DNA from: Gordonia polyisoprenivorans
GTDB lineage: Bacteria > Actinomycetota > Actinomycetes > Mycobacteriales > Mycobacteriaceae
NCBI RefSeq assembly: GCF_017654315.1
Contig: NZ_CP072203.1
Location: 3,224,001 to 3,288,000 of the forward strand
Direction: 5' to 3'
DNA: 64,000 nucleotides
Part shown: piece after piece, positions 1-7,900 of the stretch
Layout: the number at the start of each line of letters is the position of its first letter
How positions within the stretch are numbered: position 1 is the first letter of the stretch
Made by a program: the position numbers and the translations under genes
Notes under the pieces: generated by a model
What the model was told of the DNA's origin: nothing
The model's input: the letters and a program-made list of their open reading frames with translations, nothing else
Databases searched by the model: none

Positions 1-2
1 GG

Positions 3-107
3 CACGACCCGACCGACCCCGGAGCGGCCACCTCGGTGATGGTGACGATCGAGCAGGGCGGCGCCGTGTGTGCCGAGATCCGGCTGGGTGTGGTGACCGG
101 GACGTGA
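3..107 (+). CDS. 3' end of an unidentified upstream gene (partial)
   Basis: An open frame runs in from the left edge and ends at a TGA at 105-107. Only about 34 C-terminal residues are present, ending in EIRLGVVTGT, too few to assign a family. Its stop codon overlaps the ATG of the UbiA-like gene (TGATG), which suggests the two are translationally coupled in one operon. The product is probably part of the same pathway as the prenyltransferase, but that is an inference from position only. Confidence 0.55.
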   Translation, partial: HDPTDPGAATSVMVTIEQGGAVCAEIRLGVVTGT

Positions 108-1036
108 TGGTGGCCGAAACCCTTCGGGCGTCGTCGGTCTCGGTCGTGCGCATTGCCCGGTTCACCGCGGTCATGTTCAAGCCGCAGTATCTGCTTTTCG
201 GGGTCCTGTGGGTGCTGGCGGCCGAAGGGACTGCGGCCCGGCTCAGCGAGGTGCGTTGGGATCTCGGTCCGGCAACCGTCGTGCGTGTGGTGGTCGTGGT
301 GCTCGTTCTGCTGTTCCTGCGGATGGTCGACGAACAGAAGGATCTCGACTACGACCGCGTGTATCACCCGGGCCGGCCGCTGGTGACCGGTGCGGTCACC
401 GCTGCCGATCTGCGCGTCGCGATGCTCGTGCTCGGTGTGGTCGTGGTGGTGCTGTCCGGGATGGCGAGTGCGGGCTCGGCGATCGCGATCGCGGCGGTGC
501 TGGCCTACGGGCTCGGTCTGTGGGCCGCCGAGACGCTGTGGCCTGCGTTGCGACGCTCGGTGCTCGGCAATCTCGCAGTCACCTACCCGGTGCAACTGGT
601 GTTGGCGGCGTACGTGATCGGCTCGGCGGTCGACACCGGACAAGTGGGGGCAACATGGTCGACGGCGTGGGTCGCGGTGCTCATGGCCGGGTCGTTCCTG
701 CAGTTCGAGTTTGCGCGGAAGATTTCCCGCCGGCCGCGACCCGGTGAGATGTACTACTCGAATCCGCTCGGTGCCGCCGGCGCGGTCGGTGTCTCGATGG
801 GCTTCGTCGCCCTCACAACCGTCGCGGTCCTGGTGATCTGGACGCCGTGGCGGTTTGGAGTAGTTTCTGCCCTCTTCGGTTGGACGGCAGTCGTTCTCGC
901 CGTCGTCCCGGTCGGCGCCACGGCGGTGTGGCTGCGCTCGCGCCATGAGGATTACCCGCCGACGCCCGCCGCGGTGTACGTCCTGAGCGTCTACCTCGCG
1001 GTGATCGGCGCGGCGCTGGCCACCCCGACGGGATGA
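107..1036 (+). CDS. UbiA-family membrane prenyltransferase-like protein
   Basis: A 309-residue, strongly hydrophobic protein with about eight or nine predicted membrane segments. The first aspartate-rich loop (DEQKDLDYDR followed by HPGRPLVTG) matches the prenyl-diphosphate and Mg-binding motif of UbiA enzymes, which transfer polyprenyl groups to acceptors in the membrane. The second conserved loop reads FEFARKISRRP instead of a DxxxD motif; I recall this variant from a poorly characterised UbiA branch. The ATG at 107 overlaps the preceding stop, so I prefer it to the upstream GTG at 68. The gene converges on the glycosyltransferase-P450 fusion with a gap of only 27 bp. Substrate unknown. Confidence 0.8.
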   Translation: MVAETLRASSVSVVRIARFTAVMFKPQYLLFGVLWVLAAEGTAARLSEVRWDLGPATVVRVVVVVLVLLFLRMVDEQKDLDYDRVYHPGRPLVTGAVTAADLRVAMLVLGVVVVVLSGMASAGSAIAIAAVLAYGLGLWAAETLWPALRRSVLGNLAVTYPVQLVLAAYVIGSAVDTGQVGATWSTAWVAVLMAGSFLQFEFARKISRRPRPGEMYYSNPLGAAGAVGVSMGFVALTTVAVLVIWTPWRFGVVSALFGWTAVVLAVVPVGATAVWLRSRHEDYPPTPAAVYVLSVYLAVIGAALATPTG

Positions 1037-1063: not shown

Positions 1064-3703
1064 TCATCGCCTCGGCTCGAGGCGCACCCGGACCTGCGAG
1101 GGAGCGGCGACGAAATCGGTCGTCGACGGCCGCGCCCGGCGGCGGCCGGCCGGACGGACATTCCAGCGCGAGTAGAGTGCCGCCGAGCACAGCAGGATCG
1201 TCGAGATCGCGAACGTGTTTCCCGGGCAATGGCGTTCTCCCACACCGAAAGCGAGATCGGCTTTCCGGTCGAGATGCCCGGCTCGGTCCGCCTCCCATCG
1301 GTTCGGGTCGAAGGTCTCCGGATCGGTGTAGAACTGTGGGTCGTGCAGGACGAGGTACGGGCTGTAGATCACCGTCGAACCGTCCGGCAGGGTGAGACGT
1401 CCGGTGTCGTCGTCGCCGAAGGTGACCGGCCCGTCGGCGGTCTGACTGCTGATCCACGGCCCCCACATCCGCAGTGTCTCGGCCACCACCCGACGCAGGT
1501 ACGTGAGCTGTTCGAGGTGGTCGGGGTGTACCGGTCCCTCGCCGACGACGCGTTCGACCTCCTGTGCAACAAGGGAACTCACGTGCGGGTTGCGGGCGAC
1601 CTCGTACCACACCCAGGCCAGGATCGATGCCGTCGAACCGACGCCGGCGGCCACCATAAGCAGCAGTTCGTCGATGATCTCGTCGTCGGACAGGCCGATT
1701 CCGGTGTCCTCGTCGGTGTGTCCGACGAGGACCGACAGGACGTCGCCGTGATCGACGCCTTGGCTTCGGTAGCGGCGAACGACGGTGCCGATGGCCTCGC
1801 GCAGCATCGCCGAATCGCGGGCGAAACGCCGGTTCGCGCGCATCCGCATCCGGCGGACGGGGGCGGGCAGCGCGCCGCGGATGATCACCTCGCCGAGCAA
1901 CCAGGGCACGGTCTCACGCACCCGATCGAGCGCGTCGGCGCCGAAGTCGGCACGGAACAGCGTCGAGGTGACGGTCTGCAACACCAGACCGTGCGCCTCG
2001 GTCCGCAGATCCACCGGATGCTCATCGGTCAGACCGCGAGACCAGTCATCGGCGATGGCAGCCGTGGTGACCGCGTACCGCGCCAGCCGACGCGCGCGCA
2101 ACGCCGGTGCCATCTGACGCCTGCGCACCTCGTGGCGTCGCCCGCAGAGAACATTGGAAGCCTCCCGGATCGCCTCGTGCATCGCCTCCTGCAGATCGGC
2201 GCGGTGGAACTCGCCCGCGGTCCGAAAACCGATCTGCCGGATTGTTTCCGGAGTCGTGACCAGATAGGCGGGCCGGGTACCGAGGTCCACGCGCACCACC
2301 GGGCCGATACGGCCCAGACCGACGATGAAATGCAGTCCCTGGCGCAGGGCGACGAGGCTGTGGCCGAGCCCGGGTACGCGTCCGGGGGCGCTCGGGACGT
2401 CTTCGGGCCGCGCGGGCACACACTCTCGGCGCCGTCGCTCGGCACCGACGAGGTCCCGGTAGATCCCGACGGTCTGCCGGGTCATCCGGGACTGGGGAAC
2501 AGCGGTGTCGGACAGCGCTTCTCGTGCAGCATCGAGCCGCGCCGGGTTGGCGAGCACCGCTGCGATGGTCGCGGCGACGGAATCGGCCGACGCATCGGCG
2601 GCACGCAGCCCGCCGCCGGCGGGTACCGTCTCGTCGAGGTCGCGATCGCAGTAGATGACCGGAAGACCGGCAGCGGCGGCCTCGAGCAGGACCAGTCCCT
2701 GCGTGTCGAAACCGGCCGAGGTGAACAACAGCGCGTCGGCGTCGGCCATCGCGGCCAGCACACCGGCCCGGTCGGTCGGCCCGCGCAACCGGATACGTTG
2801 TCGCAGGCCGAGTTCGTCGACGCGCGTGCGAATGAGAGCTTCTTGATCGCCGCCGCCCAGGATGTCGAGTGTGCATCCCGGGGTCGCCGCGACCGCCTCG
2901 ACAGCCACCATCGGACGCTTCTCCGCGGAGATCCGGCCGCACCACAGCAATCTGAGCGGATCGTCGTGGCCGTGGGCAGACCGTCGCGGCAGTGTGGCCA
3001 GGAGATCGTCGTCGACGCCGCCCGAGACGACGCGGATGACACCCGAGAGGCCGTGGCGGCGCAATCGTTCGGCGAAATGCTCGGTCGGTGCGATCACCAC
3101 GTCGGCGGTACGCGCCTGCGCGAGCATCGTGTGCCACACCTGCCGCGCGGTGCGGGATTCGGTTACCCGATCGACGCCTCCGCGATGTGTCGACGAGCGG
3201 GGGGACACGAAGCAACGCTGCAGCATTCGCATTCCCACCGCGGACGCCCAGGGCGCAGGGGAGGTGCGTTCGATGAACACGTCGTCGCGGCTGTGCATCG
3301 TCTGGACCAGTGGAATTCGGTGCCGGCGGGCGACTTTGGCGCCGAGGATCGCAACCCCATAGGTGGTGTGCACGTGCACGACGTCGATCGGGGCGCGTCG
3401 GATCAGTTCTTTCTCGACCGCCGCGAGGACTCCGCGGGTGGGCACGACGAACGGAAAACCGTTGACCGACAGCGCCCGCGGTGCGGGCACGGTCACGAGC
3501 CAGGCGGGCACGGTGGCACCCGGATCGGTCGGTGCCGGCGCGAACACCGTCACCCGATGTCCAAGGCGTTCGAGCGCCCGGCGCTGGTCGTGCACCGCGG
3601 TGGAGATGCCACCGAGAGATCCCGGCGGGAAGTCGGTGAACATGGCGATGTGCAGCCGGCCGTGGGGCTCGCCGGGCTCGGGCGTCGCACTGTCGGGTCG
3701 CAT
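1064..3703 (-). CDS. Fused GT4 glycosyltransferase and cytochrome P450
   Basis: A single 879-residue frame with two complete enzymes. Residues about 17-420 are a GT4 (GT-B fold) glycosyltransferase: it has the N-terminal PPGSLGGIS loop and the C-terminal nucleotide-sugar region with GFDTQGLVLLEAAAAGLPV (the usual first Glu of the EX7E motif is Asp333; Glu341 is kept). Residues about 430-879 are a cytochrome P450: HEVRRR C-helix, I-helix AAGVGSTAS (685-693, lacking the usual acidic residue), ExxR at Glu742-Arg745, and haem loop FGVGERHCPG with ligand Cys826. No signal peptide or membrane helix is evident, so it is probably cytosolic. The linker (about 420-440) is Arg and Pro rich. The frame is unbroken across the junction. 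It is divergent from a GT1 gene 40 bp away. Likely role: oxidation and glycosylation of one lipid or isoprenoid substrate; substrate unknown. Confidence 0.85.
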   Translation of the reverse strand: MRPDSATPEPGEPHGRLHIAMFTDFPPGSLGGISTAVHDQRRALERLGHRVTVFAPAPTDPGATVPAWLVTVPAPRALSVNGFPFVVPTRGVLAAVEKELIRRAPIDVVHVHTTYGVAILGAKVARRHRIPLVQTMHSRDDVFIERTSPAPWASAVGMRMLQRCFVSPRSSTHRGGVDRVTESRTARQVWHTMLAQARTADVVIAPTEHFAERLRRHGLSGVIRVVSGGVDDDLLATLPRRSAHGHDDPLRLLWCGRISAEKRPMVAVEAVAATPGCTLDILGGGDQEALIRTRVDELGLRQRIRLRGPTDRAGVLAAMADADALLFTSAGFDTQGLVLLEAAAAGLPVIYCDRDLDETVPAGGGLRAADASADSVAATIAAVLANPARLDAAREALSDTAVPQSRMTRQTVGIYRDLVGAERRRRECVPARPEDVPSAPGRVPGLGHSLVALRQGLHFIVGLGRIGPVVRVDLGTRPAYLVTTPETIRQIGFRTAGEFHRADLQEAMHEAIREASNVLCGRRHEVRRRQMAPALRARRLARYAVTTAAIADDWSRGLTDEHPVDLRTEAHGLVLQTVTSTLFRADFGADALDRVRETVPWLLGEVIIRGALPAPVRRMRMRANRRFARDSAMLREAIGTVVRRYRSQGVDHGDVLSVLVGHTDEDTGIGLSDDEIIDELLLMVAAGVGSTASILAWVWYEVARNPHVSSLVAQEVERVVGEGPVHPDHLEQLTYLRRVVAETLRMWGPWISSQTADGPVTFGDDDTGRLTLPDGSTVIYSPYLVLHDPQFYTDPETFDPNRWEADRAGHLDRKADLAFGVGERHCPGNTFAISTILLCSAALYSRWNVRPAGRRRARPSTTDFVAAPSQVRVRLEPRR

Positions 3704-3743
3704 TGTCTGCAGGGTAATCCACCCAGCAATCGAAAGGAGTCAC

Positions 3744-5024
3744 ATGAGGATTGCGATCCCGCTGACGGGAACACGCGGAGACGTCCAGCCGGCGGTGGCG
3801 TTGGGGGTGGAGTTGCGCCGCCGCGGACATGACGTCCTCGTCGGAGCGCCACCGAATCTCCTCGACTTCACCCGTCGTGCCGGTCTCGACGCCGTGAGCT
3901 GCGGACCCGATGTGGCACAACTGTATTCCTCCGATGAGGGACAACGAGCGTTGGCCGCGGGCAGCAGCCTGGCTTTGATGCGACTGGTCGGTGCGCAGAT
4001 GGCCGACTATGCGTCTCGGATGAACACGGAGGTGATCGAGGTATGTCGGGGTGCCGACGTGGTGGTCGCGACGCTGCTGACCGAGGATCGTGCGGCGTCG
4101 GTGACCGAGGCCTTCGACATCCCGATGGTGACGATGCACGGATTCCCGGGTCGGCCGAGCCGCAGCTATCCGTTCCCCGGCGCCCTGCCACCGACGATGA
4201 CGCCGCCCGCAGTGGTCAACCGCGCGACATGGCTGGTGGCCGACAACGCGCGCCGGCTCGTGTTCCTGCGCTACCTGACCGAGCTGCGTACCGAGCTGGG
4301 TTTACGCCGCAGTCTGGCGATACCCGCCCAGATATGTGCTCGCCGAGGGATTCCGGAGATCCAGATCTACGATCGCGCACTGGTGCCCGGCCTGGCCGAG
4401 GAGTGGGGGCAACGGCGACCGCTCGTGGGATTCCTTCCGCTGGAACCCGACACGCGTGCCGCGGTCGGCGACCTCGACGGTGACCATGCCGAGGTGACCG
4501 AGTGGATCGACGCCGGAAGCCGGCCGGTGTACTGCGGCTTCGGCAGCATGCCGATCCGTGACGCATCGGCCACCGTCGCCATGATGCGGACGGTCGCAGC
4601 ACGTCTCGGCGTGCGCATCCTCGTCAGCGCGGGGTGGAGTGATCTCGATCCGGGCGCTCGCGGCGTCGCCGAGGGCGACGTGATGATCACCGGTGCGCTT
4701 GCGCACGATCTGATCTTCCCCCGATGTGCGGCAGCGGTGCATCACGGTGGGATCGGCACGACCTTCGAGAGTCTGCGCGCGGGCCTACCGACACTGATCT
4801 GTTCGGTGTCGTTCGACCAGCCGATGTGGGGTGGGCAGGTGACCAGGCTCGGCGTGGGCGGCCATCTCCGGTTCGCCGACCTCGACGCCGATTCGCTCAC
4901 CATGGCACTACGCGCCGTCCTGCACCCCGACACCGTCGATCGTGCGGCCCGGTTCGCGGCACGACTGACCGACCATTCCGATGCCACCGCACGCACGGCC
5001 GACATCGTCGAGGCCGCCGCGTGA
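3744..5024 (+). CDS. GT1-family (UGT-like) glycosyltransferase
   Basis: A 426-residue GT-B fold enzyme. The N-terminus MRIAIPLTGTRGDVQPAVAL is the acceptor-domain start typical of bacterial antibiotic and sterol/lipid glucosyltransferases. The C-terminal sugar-nucleotide signature is clear: HHGGIGTTFESLRAGLP from about residue 333, followed by the FDQPMWG segment. Start chosen at ATG 3744 because a strong GAAAGGAG ribosome site sits at 3732-3739; the longer frame upstream is antisense to the fusion gene. Together with the fusion's GT4 domain, two glycosyl transfers are possible in this locus. No membrane segments are apparent. Acceptor unknown. Confidence 0.85.
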   Translation: MRIAIPLTGTRGDVQPAVALGVELRRRGHDVLVGAPPNLLDFTRRAGLDAVSCGPDVAQLYSSDEGQRALAAGSSLALMRLVGAQMADYASRMNTEVIEVCRGADVVVATLLTEDRAASVTEAFDIPMVTMHGFPGRPSRSYPFPGALPPTMTPPAVVNRATWLVADNARRLVFLRYLTELRTELGLRRSLAIPAQICARRGIPEIQIYDRALVPGLAEEWGQRRPLVGFLPLEPDTRAAVGDLDGDHAEVTEWIDAGSRPVYCGFGSMPIRDASATVAMMRTVAARLGVRILVSAGWSDLDPGARGVAEGDVMITGALAHDLIFPRCAAAVHHGGIGTTFESLRAGLPTLICSVSFDQPMWGGQVTRLGVGGHLRFADLDADSLTMALRAVLHPDTVDRAARFAARLTDHSDATARTADIVEAAA

Positions 5025-5109: not shown

Positions 5110-5874
5110 ATGACGGTGACCTTCGGCGATCACGACTACGCGCTGGTGATGTTCGACCTCGACGACACGCTCGCGCCGTCGAAGAGTCCACTCGACGACG
5201 CCATGGTCGAGGTGCTGCGGCGGCTGCTGCAACGGTCACTGGTGTGCATCATCTCCGGGGGGCGCTACGAGCAATTCCGTGCCCAGGTCCTCGATCGGAT
5301 CGGTGGCGTCGACGAGGTCGCCAACCTGCACCTGATGCCCACCTGCGGTACCCAGTACGTCCGCTACTCCGACGGACAGTGGGAGACCGTGTACGCCGAG
5401 GACCTCACCGACGACGAGAAGCAGCGCACCCTCGACGCCCTGGAGACCGGCGCGAAGGAACTCGGCCTCTGGGAGAGCGAGACATGGGGCCCGATCCTCG
5501 AGGACCGCGGCAGTCAGATCACCTACTCGGCGCTCGGACAGTCCGCGCCGGTGGACGCCAAGAAGGCATGGGACCCCGACGGTGCGAAAAAGGAATCGCT
5601 GCGCGCCTATGCCGCGGAACGACTTCCGGATCTCGAGGTCCGCAGCGGCGGGTCGACATCGGTGGACGTGACCCGCAAGGGCATCGACAAGGCCTACGGC
5701 GCACGCAAACTCATGGAGATCCTCGACCTGGGCCTCGACGACATCCTGTTCTTCGGGGACCGGCTCGACGAGGGTGGCAACGACCGCCCCGTCCAGGACA
5801 TCGGCATCACCTCCGTCGCGGTCGAGGGCTGGGAGGACACCCACGCCAAACTGGTTGCGCTGCTCGACAACTGA
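5110..5874 (+). CDS. HAD-IIB family phosphatase/phosphomannomutase-like protein
   Basis: A 254-residue haloacid-dehalogenase superfamily protein. Motif I is FDLDDT (nucleophile Asp16, general acid Asp18), motif II lies in CIISGGRYEQF, and motif IV is FFGDRLDEGGND. The cap arrangement and the late motif resemble the HAD-IIB group, which includes eukaryotic-type phosphomannomutases and sugar phosphatases. It lies 85 bp after the GT1 gene on the same strand, so a role in sugar-phosphate supply for the glycosyltransferases is attractive but inferred. ATG 5110 follows an AGAGGTGA ribosome site. It ends in a shared hairpin with the convergent PhoD gene. Confidence 0.75.
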   Translation: MTVTFGDHDYALVMFDLDDTLAPSKSPLDDAMVEVLRRLLQRSLVCIISGGRYEQFRAQVLDRIGGVDEVANLHLMPTCGTQYVRYSDGQWETVYAEDLTDDEKQRTLDALETGAKELGLWESETWGPILEDRGSQITYSALGQSAPVDAKKAWDPDGAKKESLRAYAAERLPDLEVRSGGSTSVDVTRKGIDKAYGARKLMEILDLGLDDILFFGDRLDEGGNDRPVQDIGITSVAVEGWEDTHAKLVALLDN

Positions 5875-5926
5875 GCCACCGCCCCCGTTCGGGTTTGCGA
5901 ACCGGGTGGTGGGGAGATGCTCAGTT
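5869..5926. terminator. Bidirectional hairpin between convergent genes
   Basis: The 8-nt arms AACTGAGC (5869-5876) and GCTCAGTT (5919-5926) are perfect complements and contain the stop codons of both flanking genes. Between them a second stem (CACCGCCC with GGGTGGTG, one G-U pair, then GTTCG with CGAAC) closes a short loop. There is no T tract, as is common in actinobacteria. Confidence 0.55.
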
Positions 5927-7618
5927 GATCGGCGCCGCGGCCGGTTGCACGCGTGGCGATCCGGCCATCACCCGGTAGGAGCGGCCGTGGTACCGACCGG
6001 TCCGTGGATCGGCCTTATCGGTGACGAACCACCAGTCCATCTGTGCCGCAGCCGGTGTGACGGTCAGTACGGCGTATCCGTGAGCATCGAAGTCGTTCCA
6101 GCGGACGTGCCGGTTGGCCGCCATCAGTGCCGGCGAGACGGCCGCACCCGCGGTGTGCTCGGGCACGCCGAGGATGTCGTCGATATTGCTGGAGGTGACC
6201 GAGGTGACGACGAGTTCGGTTGCCACCGAACCGCTTCCCGGATAGTCGGCGGCATCGACCGGGATGTCACACGCCCACGACGAGTGGATGTCGCCGGTGA
6301 TGAACACCACGTTGGTGACCTTGTTCGACCGGATCGCGTCGAGCAGGCGACGGCGATCGGCGGTGTAGCCGTCCCACTGATCGGGGTTGTAGGGCAACCC
6401 CTCGGCGGGTAGCCCGAGGGACTCGGTGAGGGCGGCGGTGGTGCGTGTGTCGAGCGGGGGCAGCAACACCGGTGAGATCATCACGGGATTGCCGACGATC
6501 TTCCATCGCGTCGACGAGGACGCGATACCGCCGGTGAGCCAACGCATCTGGGCGGCCCCGGTGATCGACCGGGCCGGGTCGTCGATGCGATTCGACGACA
6601 TCGAGACCTGTTGGTCGCGGTAGGTGCGCAGGTCGAGCATCGACAGTTCGAGCAGCCGACCGAAGCGCAACCGTCGATAGAGGTGTGTGCCCGAGTCGTC
6701 GGCGGCCGAGCGCACCGGCATCCACTCGTGGTACGCGCGTTCGGCGGCGGCCTTGCGTGTCGCCCACGCACCCTCGTCGGGCGAGTGGTTCTCGGCACCA
6801 CCGGCCCACGCGTCGTTGGCGGATTCGTGATCGTCCCAGGTGCAGATCCACGGCAGAACACGATGGAGCTCCGCGAGATCCGGATCGGTCTTGTACTGCG
6901 CGTGACGGACTCGGTAATCGGCGAGCGTGACGATCTCGTGTCGAGGTGAATGTGTGCGCACCGCACCGGCTTTACCGGTGTACTCGCCGGTGCCGTACTC
7001 GTAGAGATAGTCGCCGAGGGCGACGATGGCGTGCAGGTCTCGGTGGGAGCGAAGATGCCGGTACGCGCCGAAGTACCCCGCCTCCCAATTCGCGCACGAC
7101 ACCACCCCGAAGCGCATCCGCGACACGTCGGCGTCGGGTGATGGCGCGGTGCGGGTGCGGCCCACCGGCGACACCGCCCCGGTGGCCGGCCCGGAGGTCA
7201 CGCGAAACCGGTAGTGATACTCGGTGGCCGGCGTGAGGCCGGCCGCATCGACCTTGACGGTGAAGTCGTGCTCGGCGACGGCGTCCACCGCGCCCGACGC
7301 GACGATCGTCCCGAAGTGCTCGTCGTGGGCGAGCTCCCACCGCACGGTGCCCCCCGCGCCACGCCCCGAGCCCGGCACCGCGTCGGCGGTCGCGGTGATC
7401 CGGGTCCAGAGGATGACCCGGTCGGGCAGCGGATCACCCGAGGCGACACCGTGGCCGAAGACCGCGGAGGTCACGGGAACCGACGCCGGTGCCGCGAGGG
7501 CGTTGGTCGCCCACAGGCCCGCCACCGGGCTCGCCGCGCACAGCGCGGCACCGGTCTGCAGAAGCCGTCGCCGCCCGAGCGGGCTCACAGCAGTCTGGTT
7601 CACAGCAGTCGGGTTCAT
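5921..7618 (-). CDS. phoD: PhoD-like alkaline phosphatase, Tat-exported
   Basis: About 565 residues. A twin-arginine signal (GRRRLLQTGAALCAASPVAG) is followed by the N-terminal PhoD beta domain (FGHGVASGDPLPDRVILWTR) and the metallophosphatase core with GDYLYEYG, TWDDHESAND and FITGDIHSSW, the metal-binding blocks of PhoD. Such enzymes release phosphate from phosphodiesters and monoesters outside the membrane and usually bind Ca and Fe. The N-terminus is uncertain: ATG 7618 is used here, while GTGs at 7633, 7603 and 7588 are in frame and the last gives the shortest Tat signal. Phosphate-starvation control is typical of the family, but I found no Pho box I could defend. Confidence 0.85.
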   Translation of the reverse strand: MNPTAVNQTAVSPLGRRRLLQTGAALCAASPVAGLWATNALAAPASVPVTSAVFGHGVASGDPLPDRVILWTRITATADAVPGSGRGAGGTVRWELAHDEHFGTIVASGAVDAVAEHDFTVKVDAAGLTPATEYHYRFRVTSGPATGAVSPVGRTRTAPSPDADVSRMRFGVVSCANWEAGYFGAYRHLRSHRDLHAIVALGDYLYEYGTGEYTGKAGAVRTHSPRHEIVTLADYRVRHAQYKTDPDLAELHRVLPWICTWDDHESANDAWAGGAENHSPDEGAWATRKAAAERAYHEWMPVRSAADDSGTHLYRRLRFGRLLELSMLDLRTYRDQQVSMSSNRIDDPARSITGAAQMRWLTGGIASSSTRWKIVGNPVMISPVLLPPLDTRTTAALTESLGLPAEGLPYNPDQWDGYTADRRRLLDAIRSNKVTNVVFITGDIHSSWACDIPVDAADYPGSGSVATELVVTSVTSSNIDDILGVPEHTAGAAVSPALMAANRHVRWNDFDAHGYAVLTVTPAAAQMDWWFVTDKADPRTGRYHGRSYRVMAGSPRVQPAAAPIN

Positions 7619-7900
7619 GCGCGGCTGGTTCACGGGGCATCATTGTGCGGCATTTCCGACATATCGCCATGGCCGACCTCGTGTGGCGCTCACATCGGTG
7701 CTGGTCGCCACAGCGGTGACACCGACGCGACGCCGAGAATTCACCTGCTGCTCATCGCGATCGCCGTCGTGTGCACAACAGGTCGGTCCGGCACGGGGTG
7801 GGCGGAATCGCCACGGATGCCGGTGGGACAATCGATGACTGCGTTCTCCTCCCGCCCGGGGGACGCGGCGATGGCGTGAGGCGAGTGACGAGGAGGCGAC

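Follow-up and report, generated by a model that had tools for sequence, protein, structure and literature searches.

The stretch of Gordonia DNA analyzed here (64,000 nucleotides of contig NZ_CP072203.1, positions 3,224,001 to 3,288,000; hereafter the window) raises the question of what task might be carried out by a single polypeptide which joins a glycosyltransferase of the GT4 family to a cytochrome P450. The corresponding gene (1064..3703, minus strand; 879 codons plus stop) is one frame that is open across its entire length, with neither a stop nor a frame change at the junction, and Pfam profiles for Glyco_transf_4 (residues 31-233), Glycos_transf_1 (residues 246-393) and p450 (residues 465-870) match above their cut-offs. 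A complete GT4 glycosyltransferase is thus followed by a complete P450, and the layout that the initial annotation had read from the letters, including the ExxR motif and the heme-binding Cys826, was borne out by Pfam and by an alignment of 25 fusion sequences. From the genes with which it travels, we propose that the fusion is probably a bifunctional tailoring enzyme that oxidizes and then glycosylates the product of an spt-like (salinipostin-type) gamma-butyrolactone pathway. Our confidence in any given product is lower than that in this pathway role, and it is from sequence that we infer the activity of both halves, the substrate, the sugar and the order of the steps.

As delimited by Pfam, alignment and an AlphaFold2 model, the GT4 half comprises residues ~17-430 (2414..3655, minus strand), including a helix at residues 404-427 that leads into the linker. 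The junction, located by alignment and model at residues 404-436 (2396..2494, minus strand), consists of this helix and a variable linker, and the P450 half, delimited by Pfam and alignment, occupies residues 437-879 (1067..2395, minus strand). Compared to G. polyisoprenivorans, residues 400-436 are 76% identical, versus 89% and 96% in the GT and P450 halves, respectively. The corresponding NG86 dN/dS values are 0.057/0.224 for the GT half and 0.022/0.138 for the P450 half; both halves are conserved, and purifying selection is stronger on the P450 half. The AlphaFold2 model reached a pTM of 0.65; within its GT half, for which a GT-B fold would be expected, strands and helices alternate, and the matches of the fold searches were filled by the P450 half.

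The fusion is present in 25 loci, representing at least 23 of the 401 genomes sampled from the family as well as Nocardia wallacei and Nocardia mexicana, as judged by reading the open reading frames of the matches; the best two candidates per genome were scored in the family sample, and the fusion counts there are lower bounds. Two of the 59 sampled genomes of the genus carry it, and G. polyisoprenivorans NBRC 16320 possesses a fusion with 91-92% identity. A search for related loci returned the full-length fusion in G. polyisoprenivorans, N. wallacei and N. mexicana; for N. otitidiscaviarum, only a GT4 was returned. Most fusions belong to a genus that our samples list under a code (g22) and that we take to be Nocardia because its rows are interspersed with those of named Nocardia in the trees. 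Within a sample of 397 genomes of the order, 33 had a match at 1e-60, 22 of these lying outside the family and matching via the P450 half only, while the five matching genomes among 396 sampled from the phylum all fall within the family. None of the 391 matching plasmid records and none of the six matching phage records covers 80% of the fusion query. A phage-encoded P450 was observed in Mycobacterium phage Adler (KC960489, KF981876), with 26% identity over residues 630-878.

The evidence for the pathway role comes from the genes that accompany the fusion. The window opens with the 3' end of an AfsA (ScbA/BarX-type) gene (1..107, plus strand; NF041195, 219 bits, cut-off 200), followed by the last gene of the spt-like core, which encodes a UbiA-like membrane protein (107..1036, plus strand; PF01040 at 21.9 bits, below the cut-off of 34.2, and a match to NF010118) and is convergent with the fusion gene at a distance of 27 bases. 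The remainder of the core lies ahead of the window (G000:C1, ~3214362-3224000), so that the order reads PEP-synthase-like (PEPS-like; NF004881, 918 bits, cut-off 883), acyl-AMP ligase (FAAL), acyl carrier protein (ACP; PF00550, 22.3 bits, cut-off 20.8), SDR/thioester-reductase-like, NDK-like, AfsA and UbiA-like. Core genes, or a marker of them, are present in all 23 fusion genomes. In 13 of these, AfsA, NDK, SDR and UbiA are located within the same stretch of about 18 kb as the fusion; the other ten have the FAAL elsewhere in the genome, such as G368 with its FAAL at 6.44 Mb and the fusion at 1.75 Mb. AfsA, UbiA, NDK, SDR and PEPS adjoin the unlinked FAAL at both loci inspected (G193, G104), and for the remaining eight genomes the FAAL serves as the only marker of the core. 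Judged by the FAAL, the core has a background rate of 8 of 397 genomes in the order sample and 3 of 59 in the genus sample. All six genomes of the order sample that possess the fusion or a P450 orthologue are among the eight with a FAAL (Fisher p 5e-12, kinship ignored). Genomes with an unfused P450 orthologue only also have the core in seven of nine cases (G086, G164, G098, G116, G072, G226, G208), and in the other two (G326, G244) UbiA adjoins the P450 on short stretches. A FAAL was found in only one of 17 genomes with an unfused GT4 only (G355, with AfsA and UbiA adjoining).

The closest counterpart of this core among known systems is the salinipostin cluster. The spt cluster of Salinispora tropica CNB-440 is given in PMC7888443 as a butyrolactone-class, salinipostin cluster of 11.1 kb with the tags RS20900-RS20940, nine locus-tag steps. 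In cluster size and gene content it appears to match a locus of genome G595 (L104), where nine genes within 11.0 kb encode PEPS, FAAL-N, FAAL-C, ACP, SDR, NDK, UbiA, a luciferase-like protein and AfsA. All core families (PEPS-like, both FAAL parts, ACP, SDR, NDK-like, UbiA-like and AfsA) are shared between L104 and the Gordonia locus at 30-47% identity. The FAAL is encoded by two genes in the spt cluster and by one in Gordonia, AfsA is the last gene in the former and precedes UbiA in the latter, and L104, unlike the Gordonia locus, contains no match to the P450, the GT4 or the adjacent GT1 glycosyltransferase. The luciferase-like spt gene had no match at E 1e-3 in L014, L015, L009 or the window, and some Nocardia-like loci harbor a nitroreductase-family gene between AfsA and UbiA. 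Salinipostins, cyclipostins and cyclophostin are described in PMC6681047 as structurally related bicyclic enol phosphates for which a shared origin with A-factor-type lactones has been suggested. A few variations of the core were observed in passing. The FAAL at L014:13237-16722 carries a C-terminal extension of about 600 further residues, whose counterpart is separate in L071 and matches NTP_transf_2 (23.3 bits, cut-off 21) and, below the cut-off of 25, DUF6001 (22.9 bits). NDK-like and AfsA domains are fused in two genomes of genus g4 (L083:10151-12007 and L092:10649-12529; 618 and 626 amino acids, both Pfam matches in frame). Plasmid pF1D18A of Streptomyces clavuligerus (L108) carries consecutive genes for an annotated AfsA-domain protein, a member of the isoprenylcysteine-methyltransferase family and PEPS-like and UbiA-like proteins, which may form a related lactone cluster.

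Judged by the families involved, the acyl-AMP ligase would charge the small ACP with a fatty acid, AfsA would condense a beta-ketoacyl chain with a glycerol-type phosphate, and the reductase and the PEP-synthase-like, NDK-like and UbiA-like proteins would complete a lactone or phosphotriester of lipid-like character. This spt-like lipid may then be oxidized by the P450 half, hydroxylation being the simplest reaction, and the GT4 half of the same chain may transfer a sugar from a nucleotide sugar to the new oxygen. A further sugar, or a decoration at another position, might be added by the product of the divergent GT1 gene (3744..5024, plus strand), which is similar to MGT, EryCIII and sterol glucosyltransferases.

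Several observations weigh against this proposal. Relative to L104, AfsA, UbiA and NDK show no more than 30-31% identity and AfsA is placed elsewhere in the order, and the Gordonia product may therefore differ from salinipostin; the lack of GT4, GT1 and P450 matches in L104 places glycosylation outside the known pathway. The core is unlinked to the fusion in ten of 23 fusion genomes, eight of them judged by FAAL only, and a FAAL relative alone does not prove the core: Gordonia G010 (L113) has FAAL, ACP and SDR and a PEPS-like gene (32%) and no matches to AfsA, NDK, UbiA or P450, possibly another pathway that uses the same loading genes. P450 orthologues are located away from the core in G072, G116 and G098 (second copy), so that the P450 and the glycosyltransferase need not share a substrate, and two copies described below (L070, L073) indicate that the fusion is open to loss or shortening. 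It might be argued that the fusion and GT1 serve a separate glycolipid or detoxification pathway that is merely near to, or co-inherited with, the spt-like core. Apart from the unlinked genomes, this alternative draws on the unfused GT4 relatives, which occur in other clusters together with PKS/NRPS-type genes (L077) or MMPL (L088) and, in nine loci, beside a GT1-like gene of 30-32% identity, and on the weak resemblance of GT1 to rifamycin- and macrolide-inactivating glycosyltransferases (103 bits, cut-off 800). However, the contrast between fusion genomes and GT4-only genomes in their possession of the core (23 of 23 versus 1 of 17) and the fact that the unfused P450 orthologues also go with the core or at least with UbiA make it a rather unlikely explanation.

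The catalytic motifs bear on the question of whether both halves are active. Among the 25 aligned fusions, E742 and R745 of the ExxR motif (residues 742-745; 1469..1480, minus strand) and Cys826 within the heme-binding signature (residues 819-828; 1220..1249, minus strand) are invariant. The I-helix (A-G-V-G-S, residues 686-690; 1634..1648, minus strand) reads x-G-V/I-G-S in all 25, with Gly for the usual Asp or Glu and Ser for Thr throughout, and the fusion P450 thus departs from the acid-alcohol pair AGx[D/E][T/S] of canonical monooxygenases. Of 12 unfused P450 rows, nine also have Gly at the acid position, and the three earliest-branching ones (L083, L092, L095) have Glu; four P450 paralogues from the same genome, used as an outgroup, read AGHET, AAHDT, AGHHT and AAHDT, with the acid in three of the four. 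The acid was lost on the branch leading to most of this P450 family, with Glu retained in three early-branching orthologues. A P450 without this acid might possibly perform peroxygenase-like, isomerase-like or substrate-assisted chemistry. In the EX7E motif of the GT4 half (D333-x7-E341; 2681..2707, minus strand), the first position is Asp in 23 of 25 fusions and Glu in L046 and L062, and the second Glu is invariant. Asp also occupies the first position in 18 of the 19 GT4 relatives that are unfused, the exception (L067) being a broken piece. The Asp is thus characteristic of the GT4 family at large rather than of the fusion; we therefore rejected this conservative, family-wide change as a sign of odd chemistry. 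The initial annotation had noted both the missing acid and the Asp, correctly in either case, and had suspected unusual chemistry from them, a suspicion that our data strengthen for the P450 and leave weak for the GT half.

The deviating I-helix, together with the lack of a recognizable ferredoxin or reductase gene in the neighborhoods examined, might be taken to indicate that only one half is catalytic, for example that the P450 is of an isomerase, dehydratase or peroxygenase type rather than a monooxygenase, or that it serves the glycosyltransferase as a binding module. Hydroxylating P450s without the canonical acid exist, though, and the strict retention of ExxR, Cys826 and the heme signature and the stronger purifying selection on the P450 half render this unlikely. 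That sequencing or assembly artificially joined two genes, as could be suspected from the separate occurrence of orthologous P450s and GT4 relatives elsewhere, can practically be dismissed, since the window stems from a single-contig genome (6,033,879 bases, completeness 100) and the same fusion is kept in 24 further loci of separate genomes, including those of G. polyisoprenivorans NBRC 16320, N. wallacei and N. mexicana; the doubt that the initial annotation had raised, that relatives might have two genes, is settled in favor of the fusion.

Regarding the origin of the fusion, the P450 tree places the 25 fused P450s on one side of a branch (support 91/90) and the unfused orthologues on the other when three rows (L067, L070, L073) are left out. 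The fused and unfused labels then change once along the tree, versus four times with all three rows kept. In L067 (genome G258) both halves are broken by frame changes, as are its FAAL and other genes, which is probably due to poor sequence, and L070 is a second copy in G294 without GT4. A second P450 copy was also observed in G193 (L073:8099-10495), a frame of 799 amino acids with the N-terminal GT4 domain only; G193 has the full fusion as well. Within the GT4 tree the fused rows do not lie on one side of a branch, with three changes, or two after removing L067, L093 and L094; a single fused clade was not rejected (p-AU 0.497). One further locus (L114, G072) is in none of the trees. The simplest history would be a single fusion event, by which a GT4 gene came to lie upstream of a P450 that was already cluster-associated, after which individual copies lost the GT half or had it shortened.

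Where the GT4 is absent, another glycosyltransferase can be found in its place. Genome G098 (L071) has the gene order of the window, with UbiA, then the P450 and a protein of 398 amino acids on the opposite strand, then GT1. The gene for the latter protein (L071:9519-10715) is situated in the place of the GT4 and overlaps the P450 start by four bases, and its product belongs to GT87 (158 bits, cut-off 25), a family unrelated to GT4. In G072 (L115:3462-4568) a 56% identical GT87 lies between UbiA and GT1, with the P450 orthologue on another contig. A glycosyltransferase is therefore retained at this position in the absence of GT4, once in an operon with the P450. Neither GT4 nor GT87 was seen at the position in other unfused loci (L068, L072, L074, L075 and others), which have GT1 only. 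GT4 enzymes work in the cytoplasm with activated sugars, and GT87 enzymes draw on polyprenyl-phosphate sugars across the membrane; the two solutions would accordingly act on different sides of the membrane. That oxidation and sugar transfer act on the same molecule, as the initial annotation inferred from the layout, is a hypothesis that gains from the co-occurrence with the spt-like core and from the GT87 gene that overlaps the unfused P450 gene in one relative. It might be speculated, as a tentative extension against which we consider the chances to stand, that inside the cell one polypeptide hydroxylates or otherwise oxidizes a salinipostin-like enol-phosphotriester or butenolide by means of a P450 lacking the usual acid for proton relay and then attaches a sugar to it, giving rise to a sugar-masked signal that is exported and freed later, and that unrelated families supplied the glycosyl step on two or more occasions, as GT4 fusion and as GT87 operon.

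The start codons of the fusion and GT1 are separated by 40 bases (3704-3743), in which no sigma-70-like consensus was found, and the scan for promoters and terminators found nothing. GT1 lies next to the fusion at every locus but L052 (24 of 25), with 61-71% identity in those outside Gordonia, and the unfused P450 in six loci (L068, L070, L071, L072, L074, L075; 54-65% identity). An assignment of GT1 as a rifamycin- or macrolide-inactivating enzyme was rejected, given the score far below the cut-off. In 21 of the 25 loci GT1 is followed by an ABC-2 permease (Pfam on three of them), the exceptions being the two Gordonia loci as well as L046 and L052; its presence beside GT1 in Nocardia-like genomes suggests export. 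The HAD (5110-5874) and PhoD (5921-7633) genes were rejected as members of the module, as among 57 loci only that of the window and that of G. polyisoprenivorans have them. The genes that could be identified from PEPS to GT1 included no evident TetR, although the locus as a whole was not searched with a TetR model.

Both halves belong to known families, and the layout is, to our knowledge, undescribed; we know of no characterized enzyme that combines P450 oxidation and glycosylation on one chain. Natural P450 fusions include the BM3-type fusion to a reductase, CYP51-ferredoxin, and CYP170A1 with a second, terpene-synthase site. In these, too, a P450 shares its chain with another activity, but the partner is a redox protein or resides in the same fold, whereas the present fusion has a sugar transferase as its partner. 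Unlike it, CYP170A1 (albaflavenone synthase, 3dbg/3el3) and CYP184A1 (7wzl/7wzm) are stand-alone P450s. The P450 half was rejected as a pentalenene oxygenase or albaflavenone monooxygenase (227 and 217 bits versus NCBIfam cut-offs of 800 and 700). The GT4 enzymes PimA, which acts on a lipid, phosphatidylinositol, and Gtf1 are stand-alone, far relatives of the GT half with weak sequence matches (38-39 bits). We also considered the Rhodococcus jostii RHA1 gblA cluster (gblA-gblR-gblE, the middle gene encoding a TetR receptor; PMC5735094), which shares an AfsA-type enzyme and an NAD-dependent epimerase/dehydratase with the spt-like core; passages of that paper name no FAAL, ACP, PEPS, P450 or glycosyltransferase, and the core was rejected as a gblA cluster because of its different gene set. 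Literature searches found no description of a P450-glycosyltransferase fusion, exact phrases matching only two papers, whose titles concern fungi or fungal drugs; the key comparative literature on spt was not covered by them. The spt-like cluster type is probably already known outside Salinispora, reportedly from the work of Creamer et al. 2021, and it may be that spt-like clusters of Gordonia or Nocardia, if not the fusion itself, are already presented in this study or in Kudo et al. 2020.

The tailoring of natural products commonly proceeds by oxidation and subsequent glycosylation, and a conserved fusion with an addressable pathway makes substrate channeling between a P450 and a glycosyltransferase testable. 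The loss of the I-helix acid, conserved beside orthologues that retain it, provides a natural series for the chemistry of proton delivery in P450s. Our proposal predicts that glycosylated relatives of salinipostin-type lactones occur in Gordonia and Nocardia and, if the formation of a sugar-masked signal were true, these would represent a class of glycosylated actinobacterial signaling lipids.

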